In this document: positions 6,485 to 23,540 of the stretch, in pieces
Position numbering within the stretch: the stretch's first letter is position 1
Layout of the letters: every line of letters begins with the position of its first letter
Assembly (NCBI GenBank): GCA_951394045.1
Contig: OX595985.1
Coordinates: 2,666,001-2,730,000, forward strand
DNA length: 64,000 nucleotides
Direction: 5' to 3'
DNA from: Nitzschia sp. DOCU1
Taxonomy: Eukaryota; Bacillariophyta; Bacillariophyceae; Bacillariales; Bacillariaceae
Translations under genes and position numbers: made by a program
Notes under the pieces: generated by a model
What the model saw: the letters and a program-made list of their open reading frames with translations, nothing else
Told to the model about the DNA's origin: nothing
Databases searched by the model: none

Positions 6485-6502
6485 TAAGGCCCAAAATTCC
6501 AC
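6446..6502. other. Element-element junction with subterminal inverted repeats
   Basis: At the E1-E2 junction the right end (...CTATTTTCACG) meets the left end (TAAGGCCC...), the same joint an excised circle would have. GTGGAATTTTG (6446-6456) and CAAAATTCCAC (6492-6502) are perfect 11-bp inverted repeats across the joint with a 35-bp gap. The same words occur near the outer ends at 5252-5262 and 23502-23512. Further near-copies of CAAAATTCCA lie at the start of the 1.2-kb right-end region (about 22337) and about 120 bp inside it. These are good candidates for recombinase-binding sites, but the crossover ACG (6482-6484) is off-centre between the two arms, so accessory binding is as likely as core binding. 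Confidence 0.55.
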
Positions 6503-6690
6503 CCATGTGGTATTTTTGTTGTATATATAATTCTTTTTAAGTACCAAACTTTTAAGCGAATATTTGGCGACCGAAGCCCCTACCCACCACTCCATCTAGT
6601 CCTCGATTGCCACTCACCCTTCGGTCATCCTCAGGGGGTGTGTCACGTCCCCACATTCCTACCCCAACCAAGCAACGTCACCTTTGAGCA

Positions 6691-9252
6691 ATGGATGGTC
6701 AGATTGCCTTTTCTGACTCCTCGTTAGCCATCCCTCCACAATTTTCCAAGAGTTCCAACATGCCACCTTCCAACCTACCCAATCCAGCTCCAGACCCGGC
6801 ACTATGGCAGGATACTTCATTTCACTTCTCACTAGATGCCCGCTGCATGGATAGGTTCATCAACAGATACCTAGGACAAAAGGTGATTGATGGGCTAGTC
6901 GCCGCCGCCGAAAGATTAAGAATCCAGATCCCTGATTGCAATATCCTCTGGCTCACCAACCATGCTGGCAGGTACCAGCAATATGCTGATCCAGATGACC
7001 GAAAAACACAGGAACAACTTCAACAAGCATGTTTTGCAGGGTTGTCGACAGAGGAACGGGATACACAGTTCCTGTCCAAATACCACAAGGAGGTGGCTTC
7101 TTCCCCTCGCTTTCGTGGTTCCAGTCTCAAGCCCACAACCACCAATTCCTACGAGGATAAGCTAGGCAAGCTTTGGATGTTCCTAGCAATGTTGGGCGAT
7201 TACGAGAGTATGTTGATTCTTCTTGCAACACCCCCCATTGCATTTATTCCATCCATAAATGCAGACCACCTTAAGGCATATTGCGACCATCGATTTCTGC
7301 TAAAGAAGTCCCCACTGTTCTGCCCCAATACAAGCGATCAACCACTCTGTGATGTTCATGATGTACCAATTCTTGCAGAAGGTGGAACCTTCAACCACCA
7401 CCGGTTTCAAAGTTTATTTGCGGCTGTCACCTTTCTATGCACCAAGCACAAGAATGGTGGGAACTACACCCCTCGCTGCGAAAACTGCTTCAACCATTTT
7501 ATCAACCGTCAACTGACCCCCTGCCAATATCACCCAATCCAGAACTTCTGTAACACAGGCAATCCAATTTGCTCTGATGTAGCTAAAATGCTAAGAAAGT
7601 GGCTTATGGCCGAGAACAACCGGCGAAACTACTGTGTCCGAAAACGTGACGTACTTCTTCCCTCCGATCTTGTGGACATTCACCACCATGTTACCCAGGC
7701 TGACTTCCACATCACCCAGTTCCAATTTTATGTGATGTTACTCAATGCCCTTGATGGGGCCCTCCGATTTGATGGTTTGCACGACGTATCTTTTCAGGAT
7801 TTCGAGAAAGACGAACATCGGCAACTTTGGCAAGTCAATAGTCACTGTGGAATTAAGTACCTGGTTCAAGGTGTAAAGGAGAAAAACGACAACCAGGTTC
7901 ACCTTTACAAAATTTCCTTTAAAGATGACTTTCCCGAGCAATGCTATCTCCGCCATCTCCTTATTTTCATTCACTGTGCAACTCATGACTCAGGTCACGT
8001 TTTCCGACGTCACGTTTTTGCACATTCAGGCAACCCGGCACCGGGCAACGTTGACAATGAACCACCCATAGGGGACGACCACCCTGTGCCTCATCAATCA
8101 TTCCACAACTGGATCTGCTCACGTCTCCGCCTAAACTGCCGCCACACTCTCAAACCTGGCCTGCTGAAGTGGGGCACTCATTCCCTAAGGCGTACCTTTT
8201 ATTTCTTCTGGGCACTGGGTGGTGGCGAGTTCGAAGCTGCCAAGAGAAACGCTCGCCACAAGGACACTGCTACTGCCCTTGGCTACCAGGCGGACTCTGC
8301 AGTCCTAGTTCGGGAAATCCATTCCAACCCCAAAGCAGCCATTATACAACGAATTTGGCCAGCACAAGAGCGCCTCTTGTGCCAAGGCGGACACTCCCTT
8401 ATGCGAATTCACCAATTTTCTGCAGACATCCCAATCGAGCTAGGTGGACTTTCAGAAGCGGCAAGTTATTTTGTTACCAAAATGCTGGGTGTGCCTAGCA
8501 ACAGCCCCATCTATCGCAATGCGGGGCAGTTGTGCCAACTTTCCTATACCAGAAAATTTACAGACAACAGGGCTAAAGCCTCATACCTGGAGTGGGTCGA
8601 GGAAAGTTTAAACCCAGATCAACGCCAAAAAGCTTTATCCCTTTTTCACAATGCGGTGGAAGAGGAGGTATCTTTACAATTGCAAGGCAGTTCCCCTGAA
8701 TCTACTGCTCCAAGTCCTGCAGCTGCACGAGGTACCATCCAACCATCCCCGACAGATGAACACAAGCCAGCAGCCAGCAATGCCTCCCAAGCAACCACTC
8801 CCTCACCACTACCTCCCACGCTACCAGGTTTCCACTTTACAGGTGTCACTGACCACGGATCAATTATTCCTCTGGAAATACTAGTCAAGGCAGGTACAAC
8901 CACAACAGGTAGAGTTCAATACAAAGTCAAGCCTGACATCCTTCCAAGGCTTTCAGGGCACCATGGTGAATTGGTGATCAGGGTTCTGTATAGACTCATG
9001 CATGAGGTTGCCAGCATTGCTTTTGACGGTCAGCAGCCACCTGTACCCTTCGACCTACTCTACGAACAAGGGCGCAAAAAATGTCGACCATCCAGACACA
9101 TTTTCAAGAAGTACCTCAACGCACTGCACCTTTGTATCCGAGTTTGTCATTCCAACAATATCAACAGCTTCATTGATGCTAACCCATCTTGGTGTATCAG
9201 CAATCCCCCTGTTTGCATCAAATGCTACCCACAAGTCCTACCCTCTAGTTAA
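6691..9252 (+). CDS. Tyrosine recombinase (Crypton-like integrase/transposase) of the 17-kb element
   Basis: 853-aa protein with the tyrosine-recombinase active site: Arg359 in ALRFDGL, a candidate beta-hairpin Lys near GIKYLVQGVKEK, His497-x2-Arg500 in THSLRRT, His523 in ARHKD and nucleophile Tyr532 in ALGYQ. The nine-residue His-Tyr spacing fits the family. Before the catalytic domain a Cys-rich stretch (Cys263, Cys266, Cys278 and following His/Cys) may bind zinc. After Tyr532 there are about 320 further residues with a Pro/Ser-rich linker and a folded-looking C-terminus (LYRLMHEVASIAF), longer than typical phage or Crypton recombinases. It would catalyse strand exchange during excision and integration through a 3'-phosphotyrosyl intermediate in the nucleus. 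The ATG at 6691 lies 206 bp inside the element's left end. Seen: catalytic residues. Inferred: that it moves this element and its deletion derivative. Confidence 0.88.
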   Translation: MDGQIAFSDSSLAIPPQFSKSSNMPPSNLPNPAPDPALWQDTSFHFSLDARCMDRFINRYLGQKVIDGLVAAAERLRIQIPDCNILWLTNHAGRYQQYADPDDRKTQEQLQQACFAGLSTEERDTQFLSKYHKEVASSPRFRGSSLKPTTTNSYEDKLGKLWMFLAMLGDYESMLILLATPPIAFIPSINADHLKAYCDHRFLLKKSPLFCPNTSDQPLCDVHDVPILAEGGTFNHHRFQSLFAAVTFLCTKHKNGGNYTPRCENCFNHFINRQLTPCQYHPIQNFCNTGNPICSDVAKMLRKWLMAENNRRNYCVRKRDVLLPSDLVDIHHHVTQADFHITQFQFYVMLLNALDGALRFDGLHDVSFQDFEKDEHRQLWQVNSHCGIKYLVQGVKEKNDNQVHLYKISFKDDFPEQCYLRHLLIFIHCATHDSGHVFRRHVFAHSGNPAPGNVDNEPPIGDDHPVPHQSFHNWICSRLRLNCRHTLKPGLLKWGTHSLRRTFYFFWALGGGEFEAAKRNARHKDTATALGYQADSAVLVREIHSNPKAAIIQRIWPAQERLLCQGGHSLMRIHQFSADIPIELGGLSEAASYFVTKMLGVPSNSPIYRNAGQLCQLSYTRKFTDNRAKASYLEWVEESLNPDQRQKALSLFHNAVEEEVSLQLQGSSPESTAPSPAAARGTIQPSPTDEHKPAASNASQATTPSPLPPTLPGFHFTGVTDHGSIIPLEILVKAGTTTTGRVQYKVKPDILPRLSGHHGELVIRVLYRLMHEVASIAFDGQQPPVPFDLLYEQGRKKCRPSRHIFKKYLNALHLCIRVCHSNNINSFIDANPSWCISNPPVCIKCYPQVLPSS

Positions 9253-9359
9253 TTCCAGGACCTTGACCTTCCACCCTGTTCCGAGTTTGAACCCCCCCAA
9301 CAATTCAACGGAGTACATCATTTAATGAACCAAACACACTATAGCAACACAGCAGTCCA
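9253..9359. other. Recombinase gene 3' region before the satellite
   Basis: AT-rich, CAA-rich spacer between the recombinase stop codon and the first satellite unit. I see no further gene in it. Confidence 0.4.
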
Positions 9360-10749
9360 ATCCAATAACAAGTAATGGTCCAACCTTAGTATACCATTTC
9401 CACAGGTTGCTATCCACTTTTTAGCAATCTATTAGTAGAATTCACTAAGCTAGCTACCAAATAGCACGTTTTTGCTCGTTTCTACGAGCTTTCCCGCCTA
9501 TCCACACATTTTTGACAACTACCTGACACCCAAGGGTCAAATCCAATAACGAGTAATGGTCCAACCTTAGTATACCATTTCAACAGGTTGCTATCCACTT
9601 TTTAGCAATCTATTAGTAGAATTCACTAAGCTAGCTACCAAATAGCACGTTTTTGCTCGTTTCTACGAGCTTTTCCACCTATCCACACATTTTTGACAAC
9701 TACCTGACACCCAAGGGTCAAATCCAATAACGAGTAATGGTCCAACCTTAGTATACCATTTCAACAGGTTGCTATCCACTTTTTAGCAATCTATTAGTAG
9801 AATTCACTAAGCTAGCTACCAAATAGCACGTTTTTGCTCGTTTCTACGAGCTTTTCCGCCTATCCACACATTTTTGACAACTACCTGACACCCAAGGGTC
9901 AAATCCAATAACGAGTAATGGTCCAACCTTAGTATACCATTTCCACAGGTTGCTATCCACTTTTTAGCAATCTATTAGTAGAATTCACTAAGCTAGCTAC
10001 CAAATAGCACGTTTTTGCTCGTTTCTACGAGCTTTTCCGCCTATCCACACATTTTTGACAACTACCTGACACCCAAGGGTCAAATCCAATAACGAGTAAT
10101 GGTCCAACCTTAGTATACCATTTCAACAGGTTGCTATCCACTTTTTAGCAATCTATTAGTAGAATTCACTAAGCTAGCTACCAAATAGCACGTTTTTGCT
10201 CGTTTCTACGAGCTTTTCCGCCTATCCACACATTTTTGACAACTACCTGACACCCAAGGGTCAAATCCAATAACGAGTAATGGTCCAACCTTAGTATACC
10301 ATTTCAACAGGTTGCTATCCACTTTTTAGCAATCTATTAGTAGAATTCACTAAGCTAGCTACCAAATAGCACGTTTTTGCTCGTTTCTACGAGCTTTTCC
10401 GCCTATCCACACATTTTTGACAACTACCTGACACCCAAGGGTCAAATCCAATAACGAGTAATGGTCCAACCTTAGTATACCATTTCAACAGGTTGCTATC
10501 CACTTTTTAGCAATCTATTAGTAGAATTCACTAAGCTAGCTACCAAATAGCACGTTTTTGCTCGTTTCTACGAGCTTTTCCGCCTATCCACACATTTTTG
10601 ACAACTACCTGACACCCAAGGGTCAAATCCAATAACGAGTAATGGTCCAACCTTAGTATACCATTTCCACAGGTTGCTATCCACTTTTTAGCAATCTATT
10701 AGTAGAATTCACTAAGCTAGCTACCAAATAGCACGTTTTTGCTCGTTTC
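9360..10749. repeat. 181-bp satellite array, about 7.7 units
   Basis: The word AGTAATGGTCC starts at 9371, 9552, 9733, 9914, 10095, 10276, 10457 and 10638, an exact 181-bp period. Units are nearly identical; a CCACAGG/CAACAGG alternation and GCTTTCCCGCC/GCTTTTCCACC/GCTTTTCCGCC variants are the main differences seen. Each unit holds a small hairpin, GCTCG-TTTCTA-CGAGC, and the partly palindromic AAGCTAGCTA. The last unit stops abruptly after GCTCGTTTCT at 10749. The array separates the recombinase gene from the convergent minus-strand ORF pair. The unit length is nucleosome-sized. It has no coding frame. Possible roles include a binding array, spacer or replication-related sequence; none can be chosen from sequence. 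Confidence 0.95.
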
Positions 10750-10920
10750 TGAGTTGACCAAATGGATTAGTCTTAACGCAAGCTACCCCGTTGGTCAAAG
10801 GCCACCTACCAGTTCGACTGCTAGGATCGCAATTTCTGATTGGACCAAATGGATTCGTCTTAACGCACGCTACCCCGTTGGTCAAAGGCCACCTACCAGT
10901 TCGACTGCTAGGATCACCAT
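10750..10920. repeat. Two 87-bp repeats carrying the element-wide GGCCACCTACCAGTT motif
   Basis: Two near-identical units, with the motif at 10800 and 10887. GGCCACCTACCAGTT is the reverse complement of AACTGGTAGGTGGCC found in three other intergenic regions of the element. Upstream in the first unit TTGACCAA and TTGGTCAA form an 8-bp inverted repeat. The pair lies between the satellite and the 3' ends of the convergent genes. Confidence 0.8.
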
Positions 10921-11013
10921 CCATTGTAAATCCAAACAACTACATGGCTAGTAGGATTAACTAAACGGCTAGTAGGACTAACACATATACTAAAACCATT
11001 ACTGTTTGGAATC

Positions 11014-12516
11014 CTATACCGGCACAGGCTCCCACTCGGTTGATCCAAAATACTTTACCATGGGTACACCCTCGTTGGAAAGTCTGAACAATGACTGTCC
11101 TATGAAATACCGGTCAAACTTCTGGCAAAGACGACCATCCCTTGACTCGCAAAGGATATTCTCGACCTCATCCAGGTGAATGGGCCTAGTACCCACCGAA
11201 AGGGATGTTCTTATGTCCTCTAGGACCTGTGTCATATCCTCTTTCCCTATACCCGCCATCAGAAGGTGGTCGTGCCCCCCGCTCCCCTCCAGTGGGACGA
11301 AGACACTGCGCAATTGTTTCCGCGCCTTCACGCCAAGTCCCAAGTGAGCATCAGCTTGCACACACAGCATCAGACGGAAACCGCCCAGTTGACACAATAT
11401 TCTCGCCTTTATATTTTTGTTGGTGTGCAGCAATGTTGTTGTGACATTTTCCATATTCGGTTCCACGATTTGGTTCATGTTTGACGCAAGTAAACGCAGC
11501 TCCTCCACCACAAAGTCCACCAGTTCCTTTTTGGGATTAACGTCTGTCCCAAAAGTTACCGCAAAATCAATAGCCGCCGGTCCGAATCGTGGGGTCGACC
11601 CACCAATCATCCGTGCACAGGGTTTCTTGTCCTCGAACAATATGGTTGCCACGCGGTAGTACTCAAAAATAGGGTAGTTCACATCAAAGTCAGGGTTTCT
11701 CAACATTTGCTGGCAGACCTGGTGAAAATTCACAAAGCTGTTCTGCCACACCAGGACTAACACCAGCTGGTAGAGACCTGAGACTGGCACTCTCAACTTC
11801 GTTTTGAGTTCCAAAATGTCCGACAAAGCTAGGGACATCCAGAATCCACGACCGATTCCTGTCAGCAGGGTGAAGCTTCCGTCGGCGTCCCATGGAGTCA
11901 TAGCCGACAATGAGAAATCGTCCACACAGTACCACCGTGGGATGTTTTTTCCTTGGTACCCGCCTTGGTGTGCCTCCACCCAACGCACGTAAGCCTGGTC
12001 CAGACTGTTGAGGTAAGTGCTAGCGGCCAGCATGACCTTGTTCACAGCCGATGCCTTGGCTCCGTAGTAATCGCCAATGTTGCGGCGATAGCCCGTGATC
12101 AACTTCAGAGACCAAAGCGAGCCGGTCGCATCCACCAGATTGATCACTTTGACGACAACCCGGTCGTACGAGGGCCTGTGATCGTTGAATTGATCACGGT
12201 GTTCCTCACCCCCCTCTCCAGCAGATAAATTCAACAACTGTAAGGTGACGAACTCCACGTCGGACTTGCCAGAATAAAAATAGTCGGCGAGATGCGACGC
12301 ATAATCCTGATAGCGGCGGTGGTTGATTGTAACCGGTAGCTTGAGACAGTCCGACATTTCTCTCCCCATTGGACACAGTCCATCCAACAGTTGCCCGATG
12401 ACTTTTCTCACCAAGTGGTCTTCAGGTTCAGTGTCGGAGAATACCTCGGTGCCGCAAAGCGTCCTTGGCCGAAAGCTCCCATCCGGTAGGGCGTCGTACG
12501 CCTGTCCTCCATTCAT
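11014..12516 (-). CDS. Element ORF C, unknown 500-aa protein (possible 2OG-Fe(II) oxygenase-like segment)
   Basis: The reading frame extends upstream to 12588 only through a TTG; the first ATG is at 12516 and overlaps the stop codon of the preceding ORF as TAATG, so coupled translation is likely. I do not recognise the family with confidence. Residues around 95-150 read LLNLSAGEGGEEHRDQFND followed by alternating hydrophobic strands (VVVKVINLVD, LWSLKLITGYR). This recalls the G-x-x-x-x-H-x-D strand of 2-oxoglutarate/Fe(II) oxygenases, but I cannot place the distal His and Arg with certainty. The remainder is mixed helix and strand with no membrane segment. It is convergent with the recombinase gene and follows ORF B in the same direction. 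The alternative is that it is the C-terminal half of one long ORF B-C protein made by a frameshift. Confidence 0.6.
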   Translation of the reverse strand: MNGGQAYDALPDGSFRPRTLCGTEVFSDTEPEDHLVRKVIGQLLDGLCPMGREMSDCLKLPVTINHRRYQDYASHLADYFYSGKSDVEFVTLQLLNLSAGEGGEEHRDQFNDHRPSYDRVVVKVINLVDATGSLWSLKLITGYRRNIGDYYGAKASAVNKVMLAASTYLNSLDQAYVRWVEAHQGGYQGKNIPRWYCVDDFSLSAMTPWDADGSFTLLTGIGRGFWMSLALSDILELKTKLRVPVSGLYQLVLVLVWQNSFVNFHQVCQQMLRNPDFDVNYPIFEYYRVATILFEDKKPCARMIGGSTPRFGPAAIDFAVTFGTDVNPKKELVDFVVEELRLLASNMNQIVEPNMENVTTTLLHTNKNIKARILCQLGGFRLMLCVQADAHLGLGVKARKQLRSVFVPLEGSGGHDHLLMAGIGKEDMTQVLEDIRTSLSVGTRPIHLDEVENILCESRDGRLCQKFDRYFIGQSLFRLSNEGVPMVKYFGSTEWEPVPV

Positions 12517-14780
12517 TACGTCGATGCGCCGGCCTCCAGATCTTTTCTCCTGTCGACCACCTTTTTTTTCAGGAAATTGAAAAGACAATCAAGCCCCTTG
12601 TACTGGCTGCCCTCTTCCGGGAAGTGTCGTTTAAATATACTACTTTCCGGGCGTGCCACGTAAAATTCATTGCCCACCATTGCACGGGAGCATTGGTCGC
12701 CAACAACAATAAGAGGCGCGTCCGAACGTTCGAAGTGTTCGGGAGGACAGTCACCCATGTTTTGATATTGGTGGTTGTATTCGCCCAGTTTGCGTGCAAA
12801 ATACACCTCCACCGGAGCGTGGTACAGCATAATAATGTCTTCGGTCCGCCTTACCACCAGGCGGTGATGAAGTTTCCTGGTTTCCTCCAATGTTGCAACG
12901 CGAAGGGGTTTACTGTCTTCAAGTGACGGGTCCCCTTGGCAGCTCGGACTTGCAGTCGGGCTCTGGGTGACGGCCCTGGGAGTGGGTCGGTGAGCCACTG
13001 ACACTGCCTTGGTGAGGGCACGGCGGTCCTTATCAAAAAGTGATGGGGCTGCTTGGAGGCTTGCAAGAACAGCGGTGGGCACGGGCAGTTGCCGTCGACT
13101 ACGCTCTCCAATCTTGATTTCCACCTCGGTGCTTTGCTTGCGGTAGGACGTAAGACGATTGATAGTCATGGATGACTCTCTCCTCTTATCTAGCTCCATT
13201 GTCACGGCCAGCCTGACCAACGTTCTCTGAGCTGGCCATTGACGTTCGTCCATTTTGGAGCATGCACGAAGGAAATGTGTCTTCAACTGAACATTCAAGT
13301 CTTGCTTGTATTCGAAGAAAGATTGCGATTTAGACCGCGCAGAGACCTTTTGGCGGATTGTCGCGGGGTCGTCGAGGAGCTCCCTCATCATGGTCTTATT
13401 CTCGATGATTACATCGTGGGTCGGACACATCATCAGGAGGTCTTGACAGGACTCAAGGACCATACGCTTGGTGGAACAATCCAAAAAAATCAGGGTAAAT
13501 AGCTTCTTCATCACATCCTCGTCCTCAAATATCTCAGTACGAAGAACTGGCTCAAAACAACACTGCATCGTCCTCCAGGCTAGCTGGAGAATTTTTTGAC
13601 GTTCAACCAGATTCCTCCAAGAAGACAGCTCTGTGAAAAGTTTAGAAACAAGGCGGTCCTTCTCCGAATGTCTGTTGGGACCGGTAATTTTTTTTTTTTT
13701 GGGCAAAGGACCAAGCGTACTGCTATCGGTCACGTCGTCGGTGGCCATGCTGTAGGTTCCTCCTTCGCCTTGGCTCCAGCTGGTGTCGTCGAAATCCTCC
13801 TCCTCGTAGTCGCCCTTTGAGTCTTCGTCGTCGTAGTCGTCTGTGGATTCTTCCTCATCGTCATCGGATTCCGAATCATTCGCCTCATTCTGGATGGTTG
13901 TAGTATTACCAGGCCCACCTGCCAATCTAGATACGTGCGAGTTAGCAGGTTTGCCGCCGGCCGTAGCATCCTTGGCACCGATACCCATTTGGTCCGGCAC
14001 GGTTGTAGTGTAAACAGATAATGTTGCGGCGGCTCCGCCTCCTTTGCTGTGTAACACGGATTTGGTCTCTCCCAAATCGGTGGAGGGCGGCGGGAAAAGT
14101 TCATCACTTTGGAGCACTTTGTAGAGCGACTCCATCATGGTCGCCGCTCGATAATACATCTGCGCCTTGTCGCCGCCAATCAACTTCAGGCAGTTGTGGA
14201 TGCGGACGTAGGACACATGTACGTGACCTTGCGCCACCTTAGCCTGCCAGCCACGTAAACGCAGGAAGGTGGCTAACGACATTTTGAGTTCGTTAGAAAA
14301 TACCGTGCAGGCGTAAATGCTATCACGGAAAAAAGATTTCTTGCGCTTCTTCGAAAATAGAATAAGACCGAGAGCAACCATGCCCTGTGAGGGCAAATAA
14401 GGACTTTGTGTCCGATTCATCTCCTTTCGCTTTTTTGTCTCGACGACCTTGGAAACGGCCTGGGTGAGGTTGACATCGTTGACATCACCGCCGTTGGAGA
14501 ATGCAACAACATCGTTTCCCAGCGCTGCGGTGAGTAGGTCCATTTCCTCATCCAAAAATAAATTCCTGATCGTCTGACCAGCGACGGTGGGTTGCATCGG
14601 TCCCGTGGTAAAATGGGGGTCAGGGCGCACAACGGCGTCAAAATTAACCAAGTCGCTTGTCGGCCAATCGATGGTGCCTACCGCCCTACCGAGAACTGTA
14701 TCTGCCATCAAACTATCATCATCTATCAGGGAGACTGATTTGTATTGTTCTTTGAGACGTCGTCTGAGTGTAACTACCAT
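12516..14780 (-). CDS. Element ORF B, unknown 754-aa acidic-linker protein
   Basis: The first ATG in frame is at 14780 (MVVTLRRRLKEQYKS). No family is recognised. An N-terminal globular part (about 1-260) includes helices such as FLRLRGWQAKVAQGHVHVSYVRIHNCLKL. A long acidic low-complexity linker (SDDDEEESTDDYDDEDSKGDYEEEDF) is followed by a Lys run encoded by an unusual homopolymer of 13 A (plus strand T13 at 13688-13700). The C-terminal half is mixed. The frame ends LFNFLKKKVVDRRKDLEAGAST with an A8 run just before the stop, where a -1 shift would enter the ORF C frame. It is divergent from the Ulp1-like gene, with a repeat-containing region between them. Acidic and basic blocks suggest a nuclear chromatin- or DNA-associated protein, but that is only inference. 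Confidence 0.62.
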   Translation of the reverse strand: MVVTLRRRLKEQYKSVSLIDDDSLMADTVLGRAVGTIDWPTSDLVNFDAVVRPDPHFTTGPMQPTVAGQTIRNLFLDEEMDLLTAALGNDVVAFSNGGDVNDVNLTQAVSKVVETKKRKEMNRTQSPYLPSQGMVALGLILFSKKRKKSFFRDSIYACTVFSNELKMSLATFLRLRGWQAKVAQGHVHVSYVRIHNCLKLIGGDKAQMYYRAATMMESLYKVLQSDELFPPPSTDLGETKSVLHSKGGGAAATLSVYTTTVPDQMGIGAKDATAGGKPANSHVSRLAGGPGNTTTIQNEANDSESDDDEEESTDDYDDEDSKGDYEEEDFDDTSWSQGEGGTYSMATDDVTDSSTLGPLPKKKKITGPNRHSEKDRLVSKLFTELSSWRNLVERQKILQLAWRTMQCCFEPVLRTEIFEDEDVMKKLFTLIFLDCSTKRMVLESCQDLLMMCPTHDVIIENKTMMRELLDDPATIRQKVSARSKSQSFFEYKQDLNVQLKTHFLRACSKMDERQWPAQRTLVRLAVTMELDKRRESSMTINRLTSYRKQSTEVEIKIGERSRRQLPVPTAVLASLQAAPSLFDKDRRALTKAVSVAHRPTPRAVTQSPTASPSCQGDPSLEDSKPLRVATLEETRKLHHRLVVRRTEDIIMLYHAPVEVYFARKLGEYNHQYQNMGDCPPEHFERSDAPLIVVGDQCSRAMVGNEFYVARPESSIFKRHFPEEGSQYKGLDCLFNFLKKKVVDRRKDLEAGAST
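12562..12569 (-). promoter_or_regulatory. A8 slippery run with TAATG stop/start overlap downstream
   Basis: On the minus strand CTG AAA AAA AAG (ORF B frame) can slip -1 to GAA AAA AAA GGT (ORF C frame). ORF C is open through this region but has no ATG until 12516, where ORF B's TAA overlaps ORF C's ATG as TAATG. Three readings are possible: programmed -1 frameshifting, stop-restart reinitiation, or a simple one-base homopolymer error or mutation splitting one gene. Confidence 0.45.
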
Positions 14781-15289
14781 CGTATTCGCCTGTAGCTGAA
14801 AACGGTGTGTGCGGAAATTATCGCGCAAATGCGAGACGTAGTGAAAAACAAAAATCTGGGATTTCGGTTTTTCACCATTATTCGCCCTACGCTAAGTTAC
14901 GCGTAGAGATTTGTACCAAGTTCAATTGACTGATTCTGAGAATTATGACAGGCAAGTGGACACCGCCGTGCTCTTGCGCGCGTCCGCCCGTGGGGTGGTT
15001 TGCTAAGTAGCCGGTGCTGTTTGGCAGTTGAATGACGAATAAGACTCACCTGGCCATCGAAATATTGTGCACTATCCAGTTTATATTCTAAATTTGTCGA
15101 ACGTGCTCTTATGTACATAAGGAAGTTAGTATTTTGAACGTTGGGAGAATGTGTGCACTCCCCCTGTGGAAAGGTTATATGCCCTTGTTTCTATGTATCG
15201 GTACGAGCACGTGCCGACCCAATTTATGTTTAATAAGCCCTTATGTCTGTCGGAATTCCGGTCTCGAGATTCAACCCGGTCGGTCGGTC
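14781..15289. other. Divergent promoter region between ORF B and the Ulp1-like gene, left part
   Basis: About 500 bp with no convincing ORF. It should hold the promoter of ORF B (minus strand). The right-hand part of the same gap is occupied by the 162-bp repeats. Confidence 0.4.
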
Positions 15290-15662: not shown

Positions 15663-15766
15663 TGGAAAGCCACGTGTGCTGCTGATGTCCTTGGTGGTTT
15701 GACAATGCCATCTTCCAGTTGTCTGCTTAGGTCAATTGACATTAGAGCCCACAAATAACATCCAGG

Positions 15767-18700
15767 ATGCAAGAAGCCAGTCACTGGATAAACAAATATG
15801 AGTTGGTAGAACCACTCAAAAGAAAAGATTTGCCCAAACGGCAGCCCAATGATTGGGTAAGGCCCGGGGATGTTGATTGGTCGCGTGTTCTAATGTCGTT
15901 TGAGCGAAGGGACAGTTGGCTTGTTGAATCCGTCATTGTAACCATACTCGAGGGGATGCTGCCCAAGGGAACGTTGCTACTACCTCATTATATAGCCGAG
16001 CTTTTTCAAGGGCAAGAGGGGAATCTTGGTCCTGAGAATGGACGTTGGCAGCGATTCTTGGCCAATACCAGAGAAAAATTCCAATCGCAGCAACCCAATT
16101 TTGAACGGAGACAAATGGTGCGAGTTGTTGCCGCAGTCAACCTGCGAGAAAATCACTGGATTGGGTGCGAGATGGACCCATTCAAAAGGAGGATTTGGGT
16201 TTATGATTCTATGATCCCCACTGTTTTGGCAGGTAGGGTATATCTATTTGATCCCATGCAGAAAACCCACGAAAAATTGCCTGTCACGTACAAAAAGTTT
16301 CATGTGATGTCGCAGTTTGTGGACTGCTTGTACAACCACCGCTCTGCCCCTTGGCAAATGGTATTTCCAAAGAAAGAGGAGGTGCCCCAACAAGTGAACT
16401 CCTGGGATTGTGGCGTTTATGCCATCATGATTCTGATGGAAGTTGCAAGGTCACAACCCATTGGCTGGATTACACCGACCGACGTGGGGAATGCGCGTCA
16501 GTACTTTTTGAAACTGATCATTGCATTGGGTAAGAAAAAACATTGTCGGTTCGATGAAGAAAAGTTGGACATTGACGAGCGGGCTATGTTGGACGTCTAC
16601 AAGGTCCATTTTGTGCAGCGTGCGGGTGCTGGAATTGGTGAGGGGGAGACAAAAAAAGGAGCTGCAGGGCGTAGGTCGGGCTATCGACTACGAATCAGGA
16701 AGGAAACAATCGCGAAGGACAGTACGAAAGAGGAGGTAATATTGATAGCAGAAACTCCACCAGATACTCCGCCAAAGAAGCAAAGAAGGAATGCCCTCGC
16801 TGGTGATGAAGAGAGGGAGGACGATTCAAAAAAACCACCAGCAAAACGACGGTCCGACTACCGACTACGCAGCAAGGAGGCAAGCACCATGGTGTCCACA
16901 CGGAGTGGGGACAAAGCGACTAAGGTCTCCACCAAGGTACCAAAGAAGGGCCCCACCAAGACGGCAAAGCAGAGGGGCAAGCTGACCAAGAAATCAAAGG
17001 CCGCCGCAAAGGAAAACAACGGCGGCAAAGCCCTGGGACGGGACAACGTTCAAGAAATCGAAGCAGAGCTGGAGGATCCATATTTCGACTCCCCGTCCTT
17101 TTCACTGGACTCCTCCATATGCTCATCAGTTCGCGGATCTTTGAATGCTGACACCGACGACCAGGAATGGAACAAAAAGTGCGCAAGGGCGATGCAACCG
17201 TTTGGTGAATTCGGGTTCCAGATTGAGTTGAAGTCACTGCATTTCCCCCCACTGTTAAAACCAGGAGAAAACTGGGACGAGGCACTGCTCAACACTGGCC
17301 TTGGGCTGCTCGCCGCAGTATGCCAGCAAAAAGAGGAAGGCTTTTATATTTACCCCACAGTTCTATCTGGCGCTTACTCCTTCAAAGAGGGTTATGCTGC
17401 CAAGCCAACGGACCTGGGCGGCGCTAAAGTGGTTTTCATCCCTCTCCAGGTAGACGAACCTACCGAGCACTTTTTCCTCCTCAGAGTGGAAAAAGGGCCC
17501 TCCGAATCTGCTTCGGCACAGATGAATGTGACGTTATTCGAGGCCGTCGTTCGGGAAGACGGGGGTGCACCCAAAACCCTGGAGGAACTCGAGGCGGATG
17601 ACCCAGACTTCTTTGTAACTGCTCAAGAGCTAGCAAAGACAGCCACGCGGTGGATTGGTTTGGAAGGAGAAGCCCGGCTGACTGGGTACGAGAACATCGC
17701 TTCCGCCCCGACTGATAGTAACAGTTGCGGTCCGGCCATCTTGCTGAAGCTGAACCAGGAAGTTGGTTGTCCTAATTGGGAGGACTGGCCCTCTGGAGGT
17801 GACGCTAGGTGGACCACAAAGGCAAAAGCGCTTCGGCTTGTCAGCAATGCCCTCCTTCATTTCTGGGACAAGCTAGTGCCAAACGGTGGTGAGGACAGCA
17901 ACAATTGGGCAGTCTGCAAAGAGATCAGTCTGCGCCTCCATAGGTTGACCCCACGATCCTTCATCGGGCTCATCAGCCGACTCAAATGTTCCCCCTGCGT
18001 CTGCGTGGAGAAAGTACAATCCCAGTTTGTCTCGCTAGGTTGCTGCTTCCGCAGAATGCACTCCCAATGCTTTCTTGCGGAATGGACGCAAAGGGGGCAG
18101 GAGAGGGCTGGAACTCGGCCATTGTGCAGTAGCTGCAACGGGCAAATCGAAGAGATCCAGCTCATCAACGAGAATCTTGAGAATGGAATGTCAAAATGGT
18201 ACCCACCGCCACGGGGCCCTTATGAAGAGGATTTCAAGGAGTGGCTGGAGGATTTGCAGAAGAAGCCGATGGTGGAGGACCCAAATCTCCCCATCGAAGA
18301 ATTGCCCCAGGTCGCCCCTCAACTCACTGCCTCCCCTACGAGCAGCAATATTCTGACCTCGCCAGTGGTCACTTCGAAGACGCCAATAGGGTTAAAAGGG
18401 AGCACAGTGCCGGTCCAACAAGAACAGTTGAGTGTCCATGCCGGTGTGGAGGAGGGAGAAGAAGATTCAAAAAAACAATCAGCAGCCAAGGATCAGGGTG
18501 AAGAAGATTCAAAAAAACAATCAGCAGCCAAGGATGGTGGAGACTGCGAAATGGACGTTGACGTGGCCGAGCCAGGGGAAAATCAGCAAGGCAAGCCTTA
18601 CCGGGGCAGAACCATGCAGACACTAGATGTTGGGAGGAAAGACGGGGAAAAATACCTGGTGTGTTGTTTTTGCCACAATTTCTTTGGAAAGATCAATGCC

Positions 18701-19360
18701 GAATTGTCAAAGAACTACAGAAGTGACAATGACGCAAGGATCATTTCCTATGTTTCTAATGAGATTGCCTGTTCCCAGCTGAGAAAAAAGAGCGGGTATA
18801 AAAGCATGGTCCAACACTTGTGGACATGTGGCCTTGCGAGGGGTAAAACAAGGGATGATTGGCCAGATTTCTTTGATCCCTGCTATGGTGGTAAAAAAAG
18901 GAAGGGGGCCCTGACAGATGCGGAGAAAAGGAGAACAGAGCCAAACAAAGCCAACAAAGGTCACGAGGGTAGGTGCAAGACCATAGCAGATGTCAACAGA
19001 ACTGACCTGGTCCTTTGGTGCCCACACTGCGAGAGGGTTAAAGATGTGAAAAGAAATGTTGTGGAAGCCTTGTGCCCACACTGCCGAAAGGATAAGGATG
19101 GTAAGAGAAAAGCCAAGGAAGCATTTTACCCAAATTGCCCCAAGAATGCATTCAAGAAGCTCGGAGAGCATTGGTTGGTTGCTGACCTAGAATTGGAAGC
19201 CCATCATTGCATTAGGAAGACTCATGCTTGGAAGAGGATGAGGGAGCATGTTCGGGATCATGTTATGATGGGAAGGCATGGATTGGAAAAGCATAGTCTG
19301 GAGGTGGAAAACTCACTACCACTGTTCTACCGTCACAAAGACACACCTAGCTTACCATAA
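15767..19360 (+). CDS. Double Ulp1/C48-like cysteine protease with RING-like and zinc-finger clusters
   Basis: 1,197-aa nuclear-type protein. Domain 1 (about 50-260) has the complete SUMO-protease catalytic set His130 (ENHWIGCEMD), Asp147 (VYDSM), Gln209 and Cys215 (NSWDCGVYAI). A basic linker (about 295-425) repeats GRRSGYRLR/KRRSDYRLR. Domain 2 (about 470-700) keeps His568 (EHFFLLRV), an acidic Glu592 and Cys654 (DSNSCGPAILL) but has no Gln at the oxyanion position, so it may be weakened or specialised. Residues 741-790 form a RING-like cluster (C741, C744, C759/760, H765, C768, C787, C790). The C-terminus has a C-x2-C...H-x3-C BED-like finger (VCCFCHNFF...QHLWTC) and C-x2-C pairs. A 39-bp tandem duplication (about 18460-18540) repeats EEDSKKQSAAKD. 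Ulp1 genes occur in several eukaryotic DNA transposons. Removing or adding SUMO/ubiquitin on host or element proteins is the likely theme, but is inferred. Confidence 0.8.
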   Translation: MQEASHWINKYELVEPLKRKDLPKRQPNDWVRPGDVDWSRVLMSFERRDSWLVESVIVTILEGMLPKGTLLLPHYIAELFQGQEGNLGPENGRWQRFLANTREKFQSQQPNFERRQMVRVVAAVNLRENHWIGCEMDPFKRRIWVYDSMIPTVLAGRVYLFDPMQKTHEKLPVTYKKFHVMSQFVDCLYNHRSAPWQMVFPKKEEVPQQVNSWDCGVYAIMILMEVARSQPIGWITPTDVGNARQYFLKLIIALGKKKHCRFDEEKLDIDERAMLDVYKVHFVQRAGAGIGEGETKKGAAGRRSGYRLRIRKETIAKDSTKEEVILIAETPPDTPPKKQRRNALAGDEEREDDSKKPPAKRRSDYRLRSKEASTMVSTRSGDKATKVSTKVPKKGPTKTAKQRGKLTKKSKAAAKENNGGKALGRDNVQEIEAELEDPYFDSPSFSLDSSICSSVRGSLNADTDDQEWNKKCARAMQPFGEFGFQIELKSLHFPPLLKPGENWDEALLNTGLGLLAAVCQQKEEGFYIYPTVLSGAYSFKEGYAAKPTDLGGAKVVFIPLQVDEPTEHFFLLRVEKGPSESASAQMNVTLFEAVVREDGGAPKTLEELEADDPDFFVTAQELAKTATRWIGLEGEARLTGYENIASAPTDSNSCGPAILLKLNQEVGCPNWEDWPSGGDARWTTKAKALRLVSNALLHFWDKLVPNGGEDSNNWAVCKEISLRLHRLTPRSFIGLISRLKCSPCVCVEKVQSQFVSLGCCFRRMHSQCFLAEWTQRGQERAGTRPLCSSCNGQIEEIQLINENLENGMSKWYPPPRGPYEEDFKEWLEDLQKKPMVEDPNLPIEELPQVAPQLTASPTSSNILTSPVVTSKTPIGLKGSTVPVQQEQLSVHAGVEEGEEDSKKQSAAKDQGEEDSKKQSAAKDGGDCEMDVDVAEPGENQQGKPYRGRTMQTLDVGRKDGEKYLVCCFCHNFFGKINAELSKNYRSDNDARIISYVSNEIACSQLRKKSGYKSMVQHLWTCGLARGKTRDDWPDFFDPCYGGKKRKGALTDAEKRRTEPNKANKGHEGRCKTIADVNRTDLVLWCPHCERVKDVKRNVVEALCPHCRKDKDGKRKAKEAFYPNCPKNAFKKLGEHWLVADLELEAHHCIRKTHAWKRMREHVRDHVMMGRHGLEKHSLEVENSLPLFYRHKDTPSLP

Positions 19361-19529
19361 TACATTAATAGAGGTCCAAGATTTAGGTAAACATTGACTT
19401 AGTTGTCAAGATTCATGAAGGTGCTTATGTGCCTAACTACCACATCTGAATTGGAATTTAGTGCTCATACAAGTCATATTGGTAGGTGGACTTAAATATT
19501 CTGTAATGGGAGGTAGGGACAAATCTGCT

Positions 19530-20180
19530 CGGTCAAAATCGACTTAAAGTCGAATTGGTCCAATTGGTAGGTGGCCTTAGCCTGGGGTTGGGGCGAAGAA
19601 ATTTGATTGGTTGCCTTCCAGTCAAATGAGTCCGATTCCCTTAAAGTCGAATTGGTCCAATTGGTAGGTGGCCTTAGCCTGGGGTTGGAGCGAAGAAATC
19701 CAATTGGTTGCCTTCCAGTCAAATGAGTCCGATTGCCTTAAAGTCGAATTGGTCCAATTGGTAGGTGGCCTTAGCCTGGGGTTGGAGCGAAGAAATCCAA
19801 TTGGTTGCCTTCCAGTCAAATGAGTCCGATTGCCTTAAAGTCGAATTGGTCCAATTGGTAGGTGGCCTTAGCCTGAGGTCGGAGCGAAGAAATCCAATTG
19901 GTTGCCTTATAGTCAAATGAGTCGGATTGACTTAAAGTCGAATTGGTCCAATTGGTAGGTGGACTTAGCCTGAGGTCGGAGAGAAGAAATCCAATTGGTT
20001 GCCTTCCAGTCAAATGAGTCCGATTGACTTAAAGTCGAATCGGTCCAATTGGTAGGTGGCCTTAGCCTGGGGTCGGAGCGAAGTCGAATTGGTCCAATTG
20101 GTAGGTGGCGTTAGCCCGGGGTCGGTGGGAAAAAATCCAATTGGTTGCCTTACAGTCAGATGAGTCCAATTGGTAGGAGG
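19530..20180. repeat. 97-bp tandem repeats with AATTGGTAGGTGGCCTTAG motif
   Basis: The core GGTAGGTGGCC begins at 19566, 19663, 19760, 19857, 19954 and 20051 (exact 97-bp period), then 20100 (a 49-bp partial unit), with a degenerate copy at about 20166. Each unit also contains TTGGTCCAATTGG and CCAATTGGTTGCC, which can pair with the core. Short reading frames on the minus strand simply follow the repeat. It lies between the Ulp1-like gene and the Cys-motif gene. Confidence 0.92.
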
Positions 20181-20466
20181 CGCTCGTCGGGGATGAAAGA
20201 GAAGACATTCAACTGGTCGTACCAGTCTAATTAATTTGGTGAAATTGATCCAATCAGTCAAAATTGGTTTGTGGTCACGTGGGTCGCTTTGGTAGTTTGG
20301 GTGGACCTAAGTAGGGATGATCAAGGGTTTAAAAAAAATGATGGGCAGGTGGGCATGTGCCCCAACAATGACAAAAACTGGGAGGGCCAAAACGAGTTGG
20401 GGAAACGGTGTTACATCAGTCTAAAGAAGAGATTGGTTTTAAAGAGAAGAAGATTGAAATAAGAAA

Positions 20467-21405
20467 ATGTTGGAACCTGGGGAGTTGGTTATGTTGGAAG
20501 AAGTCATGGAAGAAACTGTCAAAAATGATTCCAATGATACAGATGGGCATGCTAAACAGAAGGTAAATGCCCCGTCAGCTGTCCGTTTGGAACCAATAAT
20601 GGAGGAGCTTTATGCAGACATAGACGCATTGGAGATGATTGACCCGCACAGGTCCAGGGCAGTTGAACAACAATTCATTGAAGAGATTAAGGCAATTATT
20701 GCTCAGGCTCGTGATAAATTACGAAAAGGTGAAGAGACTAAAATTCCAGTGGAAACCACTGTCGTTGTGGTGGATGGTAAACAAGGGAGTGGTGAAATGC
20801 GCCAGGAGGTTAGCAAAGAAACGCAAACAAAAAATGACAGTGTTAGCGTAAAAATGGATAAAGTGGAAGAAAGTGAGTGTGCTCATGTTGAGAAAAAAAG
20901 GAAGATGAATTACGAGGAGTGGGAAGCACCGCCGGTGGAAAATGGGGAGTGGTTGGAGGCAGAAGGGTTTGGAGCATTACGTAGGTCCCTGGAGGTGGGA
21001 GTCCCGGAGGATGTCGAGGAGGCTGCATTTGTAGAGTGGGATGAAGAGGAAGAGGCCAGGAGGTTGGAGTTTGAACGTAGGGGTAACAGGCTGTGCGAGC
21101 AGTGTGGTTCTGACCCATGTTGCCTTGACAATTACTCGCGTGGCAAAGATGGGAAGGAAAGAAGGCTTGGACATGACATGATAAGTTTGGGGGAAGGAAT
21201 GAAGGATAGAGATGGAATGAGTAATTTGGAAGTACGCCATAAATTGGAATTTTTTGCGAAGAGCTTCATGAAAAATCTGGTGGACGACAGGTTTAAAGAC
21301 AAACTTCCAAAGTGCGTTGAGGAAGAAATAAAGAAAAGTTACCCGGAGAGGGGGGTGAATGTGAAGAATACCTTCAAACAAGGGTATATGTATTTCTTGG
21401 ATTAG
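20467..21405 (+). CDS. Element ORF E, 312-aa protein with C-x2-C-x3-PCC motif
   Basis: Highly charged, mostly helical protein. Residues about 211-224 read LCEQCGSDPCCLDNYSRG, a compact Cys cluster probably binding zinc. The C-terminal 70 residues (EVRHKLEFFAKSF...DKLPKCVEEEIKKSYP) resemble, from memory, small uncharacterised protist proteins that pair a CxxCx3PC cluster with an LPxCVxxxI tail and are often multicopy. I cannot assign a biochemical role. The ATG at 20467 is well placed. The stop lies 11 bp from the stop of the convergent PIP-box gene. Confidence 0.6.
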   Translation: MLEPGELVMLEEVMEETVKNDSNDTDGHAKQKVNAPSAVRLEPIMEELYADIDALEMIDPHRSRAVEQQFIEEIKAIIAQARDKLRKGEETKIPVETTVVVVDGKQGSGEMRQEVSKETQTKNDSVSVKMDKVEESECAHVEKKRKMNYEEWEAPPVENGEWLEAEGFGALRRSLEVGVPEDVEEAAFVEWDEEEEARRLEFERRGNRLCEQCGSDPCCLDNYSRGKDGKERRLGHDMISLGEGMKDRDGMSNLEVRHKLEFFAKSFMKNLVDDRFKDKLPKCVEEEIKKSYPERGVNVKNTFKQGYMYFLD

Positions 21406-21416
21406 TTTAAAAAATC

Positions 21417-21941
21417 TTAAGTTTGTGGTTCCCAGTTGAACTCATTCTCCTCGTTGTCAGAAGTGCTAGCAGCAGATGCATGGGTGGTGGTGGAATTGGT
21501 AGCAGCAGTATGTCTGGTGGTAATTTTCCTGGCCTTAGTTCTCTTGCGAATGTGGGGTGTGGCTGATTTGGCTATGGAAAAAAATTGGTCGAGGGAGTGC
21601 TGCTTGCCTTTCTTTACTTCTTTCAATGCTTGACGTTTGACTTTTTTGGCTGCACGTTCTTCGAATTGGTAGGATTCGTATCGTTCCCTGGCCGTTTGCA
21701 TGGGGGGGAGCTTGTTGAGGTAGAGGTGGCACTGGGGACAGTGACAGTCTTTGGATTGGTGTTCGATGACAACTCGAGGGTCATAGGTAGGGTCGATTAG
21801 CCGGCGGGAGAACTTCACTTGGGGTGGACTACTCTCTGGAGATGAGGTCATATTGGGGGATAAGGAGGATATGGTTGTAACGATGAGGATAGGGTAAACA
21901 GGCTCGATGAGGGTGGTTTTTTGGCATGCTCCACACAACAT
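21417..21941 (-). CDS. Element ORF F, 174-aa protein with PCNA-interacting (PIP) box
   Basis: The first ATG is at 21941; the frame extends six codons further only through a TTG. Residues 3-6 (C-x2-C) and 66-71 (CHCPQC) may form zinc sites. A basic helix (about 95-113: RAAKKVKRQALKEVKKGK) runs into Q114-H-S-L-D-Q-F-F121, an exact match to the PIP-box consensus Q-x2-[LIM]-x2-[FY][FY], followed by a basic Ser/Thr-rich tail (HIRKRTKARK). PIP boxes bind the interdomain groove of PCNA at replication forks. Known mobile elements use PCNA contacts to couple movement to replication. Seen: motif and basic flank. Inferred: PCNA binding. The gene is small, so its reality depends on conservation, though the motif argues against a chance frame. 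Confidence 0.55.
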   Translation of the reverse strand: MLCGACQKTTLIEPVYPILIVTTISSLSPNMTSSPESSPPQVKFSRRLIDPTYDPRVVIEHQSKDCHCPQCHLYLNKLPPMQTARERYESYQFEERAAKKVKRQALKEVKKGKQHSLDQFFSIAKSATPHIRKRTKARKITTRHTAATNSTTTHASAASTSDNEENEFNWEPQT

Positions 21942-22110
21942 TGCAAAATCGAAAATCAATGAGTGGGCGACTGGCCTTTTGTCATTGGTGGTTTGGTGCT
22001 AAGGCTATAGCTATTTAGCCTGATAAGGCCATTTATGAGATGGAAATCGCTGGGGCAATCACCTCCGTGGGGAAAACGAGGTTGGGGAAATCAGTTGTTA
22101 TCGAGTAAGT

Positions 22111-22226
22111 AGGGCCAGGTACCAGTTGATGGATAGGAAATGGTAGCTGGCCCTTGTGTGTCCAGTAAAGACTATCGTAAGAAGGGCCAGATACCAATTG
22201 ATACATCAAAATTGGTAGTTGGCCCT
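22111..22226. repeat. Two hairpin copies of the element-wide motif
   Basis: AGGGCCAGGTACCAGTT...AATGGTAGCTGGCCCTT (22111-22154) and AGGGCCAGATACCAATT...AATTGGTAGTTGGCCCTT (about 22183-22226) are imperfect palindromes of the same design as those upstream of the Ulp1-like gene. They lie between the PIP-box gene and the 1.2-kb right-end region. Confidence 0.85.
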
Positions 22227-22333
22227 TGTGTGTCAGGTAAAGAGGATTCGATCGCCAAGGTTTGGTGATGGATCGCCTTTTGGAAATGAACACATGGTAC
22301 TAATTCTACATACGTCGACTGATAGTAGACATC

Positions 22334-23540
22334 GTACCAAAATTCCATTTCCCCGTATGTAGAAATACTGATACCGTCATTGGAGTTTGTGGATTTCTCG
22401 TGGTGTTGACGTGGCAAATCCACTGCGGAGTGGACAGGAATCGTGGAGTTTAGGGGCCAAAAATTCCACAATACGATCCGCAATACCAAATTCTGCTCTC
22501 GCACACGTGTGTTTGAGAATGACAAAACGCAACAACAAACTATGACAACACACCAATGCATCTGGCCCATATGCCAATCCGGACTGCAAACCTGGGGACT
22601 TACACAGCAAAGCGAATGCACCCATCGGCATGATTTGATTGTATGCCTTGCAAGTCAACAGGTTTTGGGTTTGCACCGAACGAGTTGCTGGAAGGCGCCC
22701 CCGTCCCAAACGAGTGCTTTGGGCTGAACAATTGCAGCAACAATCAACCCGCTGCCGCTGGGAGAAACAATGACGACGATGATTCATCTGACGATGACAA
22801 TGGTCCCACAAATGGAGAAGACCCCCCAAACCACAGATGGATCAAGAACAAATTGCCAACAATGGGCAGTCAGCTGAGTGCCTTGGCCGGTATGTCTGTG
22901 GTATGACTGCGGTGGTGCCAATGATTGTTGCGACCCAAAGACAAACACAAAAAGGAAGATGACAAGAAGAAACGTGCAATATTTATTTGAGCATGCCAAG
23001 CCCCATCAACGAAACCACGGCCCAAGCAGCCATAAATATTGCTAGTAATGTGGCTGCAACAAGGGGTATACTGCAATAAGAAAGACAACGAACGGTTGAC
23101 AGCTAGAAAGAAAAAGAAATTGTAGACTTTGCAAACTAATAGTAGAATCTATCACACTCCTAGGTACTAAAATTTAGAGTTAAAGCGGCGCTCTAGCAGC
23201 AGAGACTTGATGGAATAGAGTTCTTCTTTCATTGTTGGCTGCTCTCGTGCCGCCCATTCAATTTTATCAGGAGCAAGGATGTACAACAAAGTACTTTACT
23301 GCCGTGTACAGAATAAAGTGAACAGTACTACACCTGTCAGAAATAGCTACTGTAGCTAGCTAGAGAACGGTATGGTGTTGGCCATCCAGTCGATCAACAC
23401 GCAATTTTGCACCGACTCCTCGCTTTTAGGTAGTGGTAACGTCGTTCGACTGATGCGAACCCTTCCGACATAGACGATCGTTGGTTACACGGGATTGTGG
23501 TGTGGAATTTTGTGTGGAGTATTTTGCGACTATTTTCACG
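22334..23540. repeat. 1,207-bp right-end region of E2, duplicated in E1 (5278-6484)
   Basis: Identical, as far as I can read, to 5278-6484 without indels. It contains short open frames. One at 22643-22906 (+, 87 aa) has an Asp-rich run and one at 22443-22727 contains a CIWPICQSG...ECTHRH cluster that could be a Cys/His finger; neither has independent support. Subterminal words CAAAATTCCA and GTGGAATTTTG mark its ends. It could hold cis-acting ends needed for movement, since the deletion derivative kept exactly this part. Confidence 0.85.

Follow-up and report, generated by a model that had tools for sequence, protein, structure and literature searches.

We found that the window, by which we mean the whole 64,000-nucleotide stretch of the Nitzschia sp. 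DOCU1 genome analysed here, very probably carries a DNA transposon that is moved by its own tyrosine recombinase (YR), inserts at an inverted-repeat target and brings along a module of partner genes. An earlier note on this DNA proposed that a diatom carries a multigene YR transposon, and that central proposal holds: it is reinforced by ends common to multiple copies, by an empty site and a target of YR type, and by the presence of this gene set in a second lineage. In the 52-Mb assembly we detect one 1.8-kb deletion derivative and six large copies at separate loci, which excludes the assembly join that had been raised as a possibility. The ends GTTGTATATAYAATTC...TAGACRTMGTAY are common to all seven, running in window coordinates from 6518 to 22335-22337, and the element proper (GT...GT, 6518..22335, forward strand) is thus 15.8 kb long, not the previously proposed 17 kb from 6485 to 23540; counted to GTAY, the six large copies measure 14,233-15,820 bp. 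The left end GTTGTATATAYAATTC with its leader (6518..6690, forward strand) has seven genome matches, one per copy, and the right end, ...GGTACTAATTCTACATACGTCGACTGATAGTAGACATCGT (22244..22335, forward strand), is likewise common to the copies. Lineage 2, whose YR is 57% identical, has a similar left end, TTGTATA..ATTCTTTTT, and a similar right end (Smith-Waterman score 29, compared with at most 21 in 15 shuffles). GT is the only sequence repeated at both element ends, no terminal inverted repeats of the element were seen, and the insert sits between GT and (GT)AC. An end-to-end joint, which in a circle would read ...TAGACRTMGT-TGTATATA, is absent from the assembly, as expected for chromosomes, and lends no support to a circle; no insertion polymorphism was seen. 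All five element frames are open in only one of the six large copies.

Upon examining the insertion sites, we observe RTA-N5-G-TAY at 7/7, in which short inverted arms flank 6 bp. In the window, the left part of the target (6510..6519, forward strand) consists of the arm GTA at 6510-6512, the spacer TTTTTG at 6513-6518 and a T, and the right arm TAC lies at 22335..22337 on the same strand. Among 33,562 positions in the flanks, 2.1% begin an RTA, which gives a probability of 1.8e-12 for all seven sites by chance, for a motif picked after the sites had been seen, and at the other 17 of the 18 offsets it occurs at two of the seven sites at most. YR targets have inverted arms around a 6-8-bp spacer, and judged from its sequence RTA-N5-G-TAY is the kind of target expected for a YR, with arms of only 3 bp compared with the usual 11-13 bp. 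In lineage 2 the target arm fits two of three left flanks. We rejected a Tn916-like exchange of the entire spacer at the right end, where variation is confined to positions −3 and −1.

The YR gene (853 aa, 6691..9252, forward strand) opens the gene order at the 5' end, starting 173 bp from the left end, and is open in five of six copies. The claim of a complete recombinase is borne out by this long frame with R359, H497, R500, H523 and Y532, to which we add K396, and the catalytic residues (R-K-HxxR-H-Y) align in two other lineages, three in all. When the catalytic parts were compared by hhalign with nine known YRs, the match had a score of 36.2 (E 1.4e-4, probability 52.9), with 40 column shuffles scoring at most 18.1, and whole proteins reached a probability of 16.1 (E 0.0016), each E-value being for one comparison. 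The match, for which both shuffled and reversed controls were run, is in register with YRs of the XerD/Cre/lambda type, and the nine yardstick proteins include IntR, which shows no HxxR word and was retained. Relatives of the YR or of the C48 protein described below were not found in the PDB, and AlphaFold2 models of the YR (with two sequences) and of one 500-aa partner ORF alone were useless, with mean pLDDT of 32.6 and 33.1.

The gene content of the element amounts to five: the YR, a protein of about 1,255 aa (BIG), a C48/Ulp1 protein (ULP), a Cys-motif protein and a PIP-box protein. The partner ORFs of the earlier note are all present as ORFs, with the correction that its five further genes become four, since the 500-aa and 754-aa ORFs form one frame in four of six copies. 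BIG (11014..14780, reverse strand) is a single frame of 1,249-1,255 aa in those four copies and is broken in the window copy, by a frameshift, and in copy C3. Within the 754-aa ORF an acidic segment, residues 288-332, gives a sub-threshold Pfam match to Rpc31 of RNA polymerase III (20.8 bits, cut-off 30.2). A search with residues 1-1092 of the C8 copy, a query without the protein's end, found no BIG relative among 7,992 scored candidates at E 0.001. ULP (1,197 aa, 15767..19360, forward strand) had been described as double Ulp1/RING-like; one C48 (Ulp1-type) cysteine peptidase domain is supported (Pfam PF02902, E 2.4e-10), with H130, D147 and C215 as the residues to which we assign the C48 motif roles, and the second Ulp1 and the RING are without Pfam support. 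The Cys-motif protein (312 aa, 20467..21405, forward strand) is open in all six copies, and the PIP-box protein (174 aa, 21417..21941, reverse strand), with a CxCxxC and the PIP-like QHSLDQFF that agrees with the earlier reading, is open in five of six. NCBIfam, PHROGs and PADLOC returned nothing usable, the first two giving weak matches only, which fell far short of the cut-off wherever one is set.

Lineage 2 keeps all five genes, their order and their strands, with a shorter ULP of 723 aa in which the middle of the window protein (about residues 386-887) has no match. Between lineages pN is well below pS in all five genes, and at the level of sequence this comparison shows the four partner proteins to be a conserved module under purifying selection between the two lineages. 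Within lineage 1 selection is weakly resolved, with dN/dS of 0.57 for the Cys-motif protein, 0.51 for the PIP-box protein and 0.43 for ULP. The earlier note would have taken partners scattered and never accompanying the recombinase as a refutation, and here the outcome cuts both ways: all five genes occur together at 7 of 14 YR loci (some broken), and homologues of three partners lie elsewhere without a YR match. These counts cover 14/16 YR, 46/77 BIG, 8/11 ULP, 57/57 Cys and 17/19 PIP matches, the remainder being further pieces close to those included. An eighth near-full-length YR, in lineage 2 (C6), has only a BIG fragment beside it, the lineage 3 YR has no partner genes beside it, and the C-terminal ~100 aa of the Cys-motif protein are the source of nearly all 50 matches outside element copies.

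The longer noncoding gaps of the element are occupied by satellites. Behind the YR lies a 181-bp array (9355..10750) of 7.7 copies, with 4.1-11.7 across the six element copies, and the period of this ~182-bp array is kept in three lineages and its sequence is not. Further arrays, of 87 bp (10746..10915), 163 bp (15291..15665) and 97 bp (19543..20083), contain a 12-bp motif, which a 72-bp repeat near the right end (22105..22243) carries in inverted pairs. The motif TGGTAGSTGGCC, allowing at most one mismatch, occurs 22 times in the window, always within the element (0.46 expected), and its lineage 2 counterpart is TTGGTTCCYGAA.

In the mechanism we propose, the YR would bind both ends and cut the element out, probably in the form of a circle closed at the GT core, and insertion into RTA-N6-TAY, an architecture observed at the target, would proceed via strand exchange across the 6-bp spacer. 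The C48 protein may strip SUMO-like tags from proteins of the element or of the host. The PIP-box protein may recruit PCNA, and by doing so could couple movement to replication, so that copy number can rise. Candidate binders of the 12-bp motif, which is specific to the element and recurs between its genes, are the Cys-motif protein and the 1,255-aa protein.

The closest kin would be Cryptons, namely CryptonS with C48, and, on grounds of analogy, Starships, and for each of these groups the element lacks at least one defining feature among those tested. As described in the available part of PMC3212892 (Kojima and Jurka 2011), CryptonS is known from seven oomycetes and the diatom Phaeodactylum, some members encode an additional C48 protein, and the termini are 5-6-bp direct repeats, mostly TATGG. 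Our element shares with that description a YR DNA transposon in a stramenopile host, with RT and DDE not found, no terminal inverted repeats and a C48/Ulp1 gene alongside the YR. It is conceivable, though we consider it unlikely, that it is an enlarged CryptonS in which other genes were added to the YR and C48 pair. Against this, only GT is repeated at its ends, without TATGG, and it differs in its 15.8 kb, five genes, inverted-repeat target and satellite arrays. Additionally, none of the four YRs scanned matches DUF3504, DUF3435 (PF11917) or any other Pfam YR family at E <= 10, and the only two relatives found among 5.8 billion proteins searched have no Crypton name, the comparison being with CryptonS as published descriptions give it. 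Starships, placed in Pezizomycotina at 15-700 kb in the portion of PMC12134995 consulted, are likewise large YR elements whose 5'-most gene is the YR, followed by other genes; ours lies at the low end of that range, lacks the DUF3435 match, has a gene set constant in two lineages compared with variable Starship cargo, and resides in a diatom, with silicon transporters in its genome.

A DDE transposase acting in trans, such as Plavaka, with the YR only resolving intermediates, is very improbable as the driver. A YR has been proposed in that role for Tec elements with DDE-driven movement (PMC3212892, as far as its accessible text goes), and a BIG homologue adjoins a Plavaka DDE transposase at another locus. 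However, the element lacks terminal inverted repeats, has a YR-like inverted-repeat target with a 6-bp spacer, and its YR is the least diverged of the five proteins between copies (mean dN 0.0028). In agreement with the earlier note, the six ORFs scanned have no Pfam match to RT, DDE, capsid or DNA polymerase, which also separates the element from DIRS/Ngaro/PAT retrotransposons, eukaryotic YR-encoding elements as well, whose split or inverted terminal repeats it does not have of its own. Protist viruses and virophages do contain YRs and Ulp1-like cysteine proteases, but that the element is what remains of a DNA virus, or a satellite of one, integrated via a viral YR is a remote prospect, as the scanned ORFs have no capsid, packaging or DNA polymerase match and no YR relative was present in the viral contigs or phage records searched.

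With the element read as a transposon driven by its own YR, we tentatively entertain, at rather less than even confidence, a separate superfamily of large diatom YR transposons, independent of Cryptons and Starships, whose mobility module is five co-inherited genes, in which an accessory gene is exchanged between elements driven by YRs and others driven by Plavaka DDE transposases, and in which every lineage makes a satellite after the YR, ~182 bp and nucleosome-length, with the period and not the sequence selected. In the parts of the sources available, a Crypton is said to encode a YR, joined in some cases by a C48 protein, and the YR elements with several genes are the Starships of fungi (PMC3212892, PMC12134995); the conserved five-gene element suggests that an alga, too, has evolved a strategy of this kind. 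Clear ends and target sites make this unusually complex transposon directly testable, it may be a source of a site-specific recombinase functional in diatoms, and its period-conserved satellites raise the question of why a transposon would keep nucleosome-sized repeats.

Finally, TAAGGCCC and TTTTCACG are the termini of a separate 1.24-kb tandem repeat into which the window copy is inserted. An intact unit (5245..6484, forward strand) neighbours the second unit, which is split into a left piece (6485..6519) and a right piece (22334..23540), both on the forward strand, and the intact unit keeps the empty target site GTATTTTTGTAC (5270..5281, forward strand), the empty site being known for only one of the seven copies. 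That a 17-kb unit from TAAGGCCC to TTTTCACG is the element is scarcely credible: its flanking 1,207-bp repeat (5278-6484 = 22334-23540) is 100% identical on both sides and resembles a long terminal repeat, but the ends of the five other large copies are all without it, and elsewhere, among the 40 of 79 candidates scored, the repeat also stands as single units and as tandem arrays of, for instance, four and eight units. A split-direct-repeat (DIRS/PAT-like) reading of the 5242/6482 (38 bp) and 5278/22334 repeats was rejected, as both are part of this separate 1.24-kb family. We also rejected a firm tie between YR lineage 3 and the 1.24-kb repeat, the weak sequence match at C4:2017791 having no C10 counterpart among the matches listed; the target motif is alike in that comparison.

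The window spans C1:2666001-2730000 of a 52.08-Mb assembly (63 contigs). In this assembly the silicon-transporter family PF03842 has 18 matches, all exceeding the curated cut-off, which marks the host as a diatom or a near relative that also silicifies. A search with the protein of the tyrosine recombinase (YR) gave 16 matches at 14 loci. Near-identical large copies of the element were found at six loci, namely the window, contigs C3, C8, C7 and C4, and a second site on the window's own contig C1, just beyond the window's right edge; a seventh copy, at C5:596005-597811, is a 1.8-kb internal-deletion derivative. The five other large copies align with the window only as far as about 6507-6518 (left) and 22336-22337 (right). 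All seven copies carry, at base level, the left terminus GTTGTATATAYAATTC and the right terminus TAGACRTMGTA[C/T]; probes with the left and the right end found 7 loci apiece. The element ends and their GT core are established, and the length is 15.8 kb in the window and 14.2-15.8 kb across the six copies. The bases at -3 and -1 ahead of the right-hand GT occur in all four combinations among the seven copies. Beyond these two, the last 126 bp of the six large copies hold three variable sites, private to one copy, and the probability of two of ten variable sites falling in the last five positions is 0.05; the variation at -3/-1 could be a trace of strand exchange in the spacer. Separately, C1:2730238-2730407, which flanks the second C1 copy on the left, has a 97.6% match at window 57811-57979.

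Joining the flanks yields RTA-N5-G-TAY at all seven copies (GTATTTTTGTAC, GTACTGCTGTAC, GTATCATAGTAC, ATAGAACGGTAT, ATATTATCGTAC, GTACGGAAGTAC, GTACAGTAGTAC), and the copy with right arm TAT has left arm ATA as well. RTA, a motif picked after the sites were known, begins at 2.1% of the 33,562 positions of the flanks; at none of the remaining 17 of 18 offsets does it occur in more than two of seven copies. The target is a short inverted repeat around a 6-bp spacer, and this architecture is established. Typical YR targets have spacers of 6-8 bp and arms of 11-13 bp, according to PMC3212892, so the arms of this target are short or partly hidden. A circular intermediate, with strand exchange over the 6-bp spacer, would be the putative route of movement.

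The earlier note was misled by a separate 1.24-kb unit, to which both the ends TAAGGCCC/TTTTCACG that it gave the element and the 1,207-bp perfect direct repeat belong. This unit is found singly and in tandem arrays, with units joined head to tail at ACG (four on C15 and eight on C14, for example). Exact head-to-tail arrays of this 1.2-1.3-kb repeat lie at window 5242-6484 and 22334-23540, C15:255380-260378, C14:1239064-1248670 and C3:4187711-4190291. The window copy is inserted within the second unit of a repeat pair; the first unit preserves the empty site GTATTTTTGTACC, and the second reads GTATTTTTGT-element-GTACC. GTAG starts the right flank of the repeat at three places (window, C15, C14:697230), ATAC follows a remnant on C9, and a relative of about 2.78 kb has both ends in common, judged from match positions. 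Just left of the repeat pair, window 4401-4545 and 5044-5188 form a 145-bp inverted repeat (99% complementary, 498 bp apart) that resembles a fold-back or MITE element.

All five genes occur together at 7 of the 14 YR loci. A second lineage, at C5:2792731-2808261 (15.5 kb), has a YR 57% identical to that of the window lineage and an unchanged order and strands: YR(+), BIG(-), ULP(+), Cys(+), PIP(-), that is, recombinase, a large protein (about 1,255 aa in lineage 1), a C48/Ulp1-type peptidase protein, a Cys-motif protein (312 aa in lineage 1) and a PIP-box protein (174 aa in lineage 1). Its left end resembles that of lineage 1, and its right end was located by similarity (Smith-Waterman 29 vs at most 21 in 15 shuffles), with the final 20 bp, ending at the CT core, placed by eye. 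Between these lineages pN is well under pS for all five genes (YR 0.29/0.78, BIG 0.35/0.80, ULP 0.45/0.84, Cys 0.08/0.27, PIP 0.07/0.38), and within lineage 1, where changes are few, dN/dS is 0.22 for YR, 0.29 for BIG, 0.43 for ULP, 0.51 for PIP and 0.57 for Cys. The conserved gene set and selection between lineages are established. Synonymous divergence of the Cys-PIP block between lineages is far lower (dS 0.33 and 0.52 vs saturation), which suggests that this module was exchanged.

The seven loci with incomplete sets are the deletion derivative, a C6 locus where a BIG fragment is the sole partner of a near full-length lineage-2 YR, partial copies at C1:3259584 and C9:170145, and three lineage-3 loci. 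At C9:170145 the small YR remnant is nearest lineage 2 (81.6% over 38 aa) and has BIG relatives on either side. Lineage 3 (C4:2007435, C10:2266415, C3:204105) encodes a 782-aa YR of 30% identity and has the left end GTAGGTTTCGCTC in the context CTAC-N4-GTAG at all three sites; near these loci no match to the four partner proteins was found.

On the earlier note's refuting condition, partner homologues that are scattered and never accompany the recombinase, the result is mixed: the partners do occur with it, but not exclusively, since homologues of BIG, PIP and Cys are also present without a YR match. At 15-kb linkage, YR-less clusters comprise 22 with BIG and 10 with PIP, plus all 50 Cys matches outside element copies. 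At the one YR-less BIG locus whose neighbourhood was read (C11:1968907, within C11:1965301-1972396), the homologue adjoins a Plavaka transposase (PF18759, 33.5 bits vs cut-off 26.3), so at least one DDE element shares BIG; by matches, this BIG type is also present at four further loci. Outside the element, ULP is limited to fragments at C11:2262249, close to a BIG relative. C11:2251697-2262249, with that relative (a 1,195-aa open frame at its end), the ULP fragments and no YR detected, is possibly a further lineage. The Cys domain (roughly 100 aa) of the 312-aa protein has about 50 scattered matching ORFs, a large family in this genome.

Two ORFs formerly read as separate, of 500 and 754 aa, are a single BIG frame of 1,249-1,255 aa in four of six copies. 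Across the six copies, open frames number 5 for YR, 4 for BIG, 3 for ULP (the others having a stop or deletion), 6 for Cys and 5 for PIP, with all five open in one copy. C48 in ULP, with H130, D147 and C215, is the only Pfam domain among the partners to pass its cut-off. The partner proteins might provide a SUMO-protease link and a PCNA link.

R359, K396, H497, R500, H523 and Y532 of the YR align across the three lineages at 30-57% identity, and Pfam returned no YR family match at E <= 10 for the element YRs. When a profile of the catalytic parts of five relatives was compared with nine known YRs, R, HxxR, H and Y fell in register at a score of 36.2 (probability 52.9; E 1.4e-4 for this single comparison). 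The score never exceeded 18.1 over 40 column shuffles and was 14.5 for the reversed profile. Whole-protein profiles reached a probability of only 16.1 (E 0.0016). Searching 5.8 billion proteins twice, by a method that detects only relatives with 5-residue words in common (4,545 and 5,971 candidates scored), gave two short JGI proteins, one of which, P0002, has His at the expected catalytic Tyr position. The background papers were PMC3212892, PMC12134995 and PMC6431247. Titles and abstract beginnings from a chiefly open-access literature without preprints, including papers with a single mention of Crypton in diatoms, describe no multigene YR transposon in diatoms; this is a weak indication of novelty.

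Allowing at most 1 mismatch, the window contains TGGTAGSTGGCC 22 times vs 0.46 expected, always within the element, and over the six copies the counts are 13-23 inside and 0-1 outside; an element protein could bind the 12-bp motif. None occurs in 28 kb of lineage 2, which instead carries, in three gaps (BIG-ULP, ULP-Cys and right-terminal), arrays of TTGGTTCC(C/T)GAA-type words; lineage 1 holds motif arrays in these gaps as well. The array behind YR has a period of 181, 182 and 183 bp in lineages 1, 2 and 3, conserved while the sequence is unrelated (best mutual match between units, E 0.055); our guess is that nucleosome spacing underlies it. Elsewhere, window 48926-52826 contains dense nested tandem arrays with units of 66, 48, 128, 89 and 63 bp.
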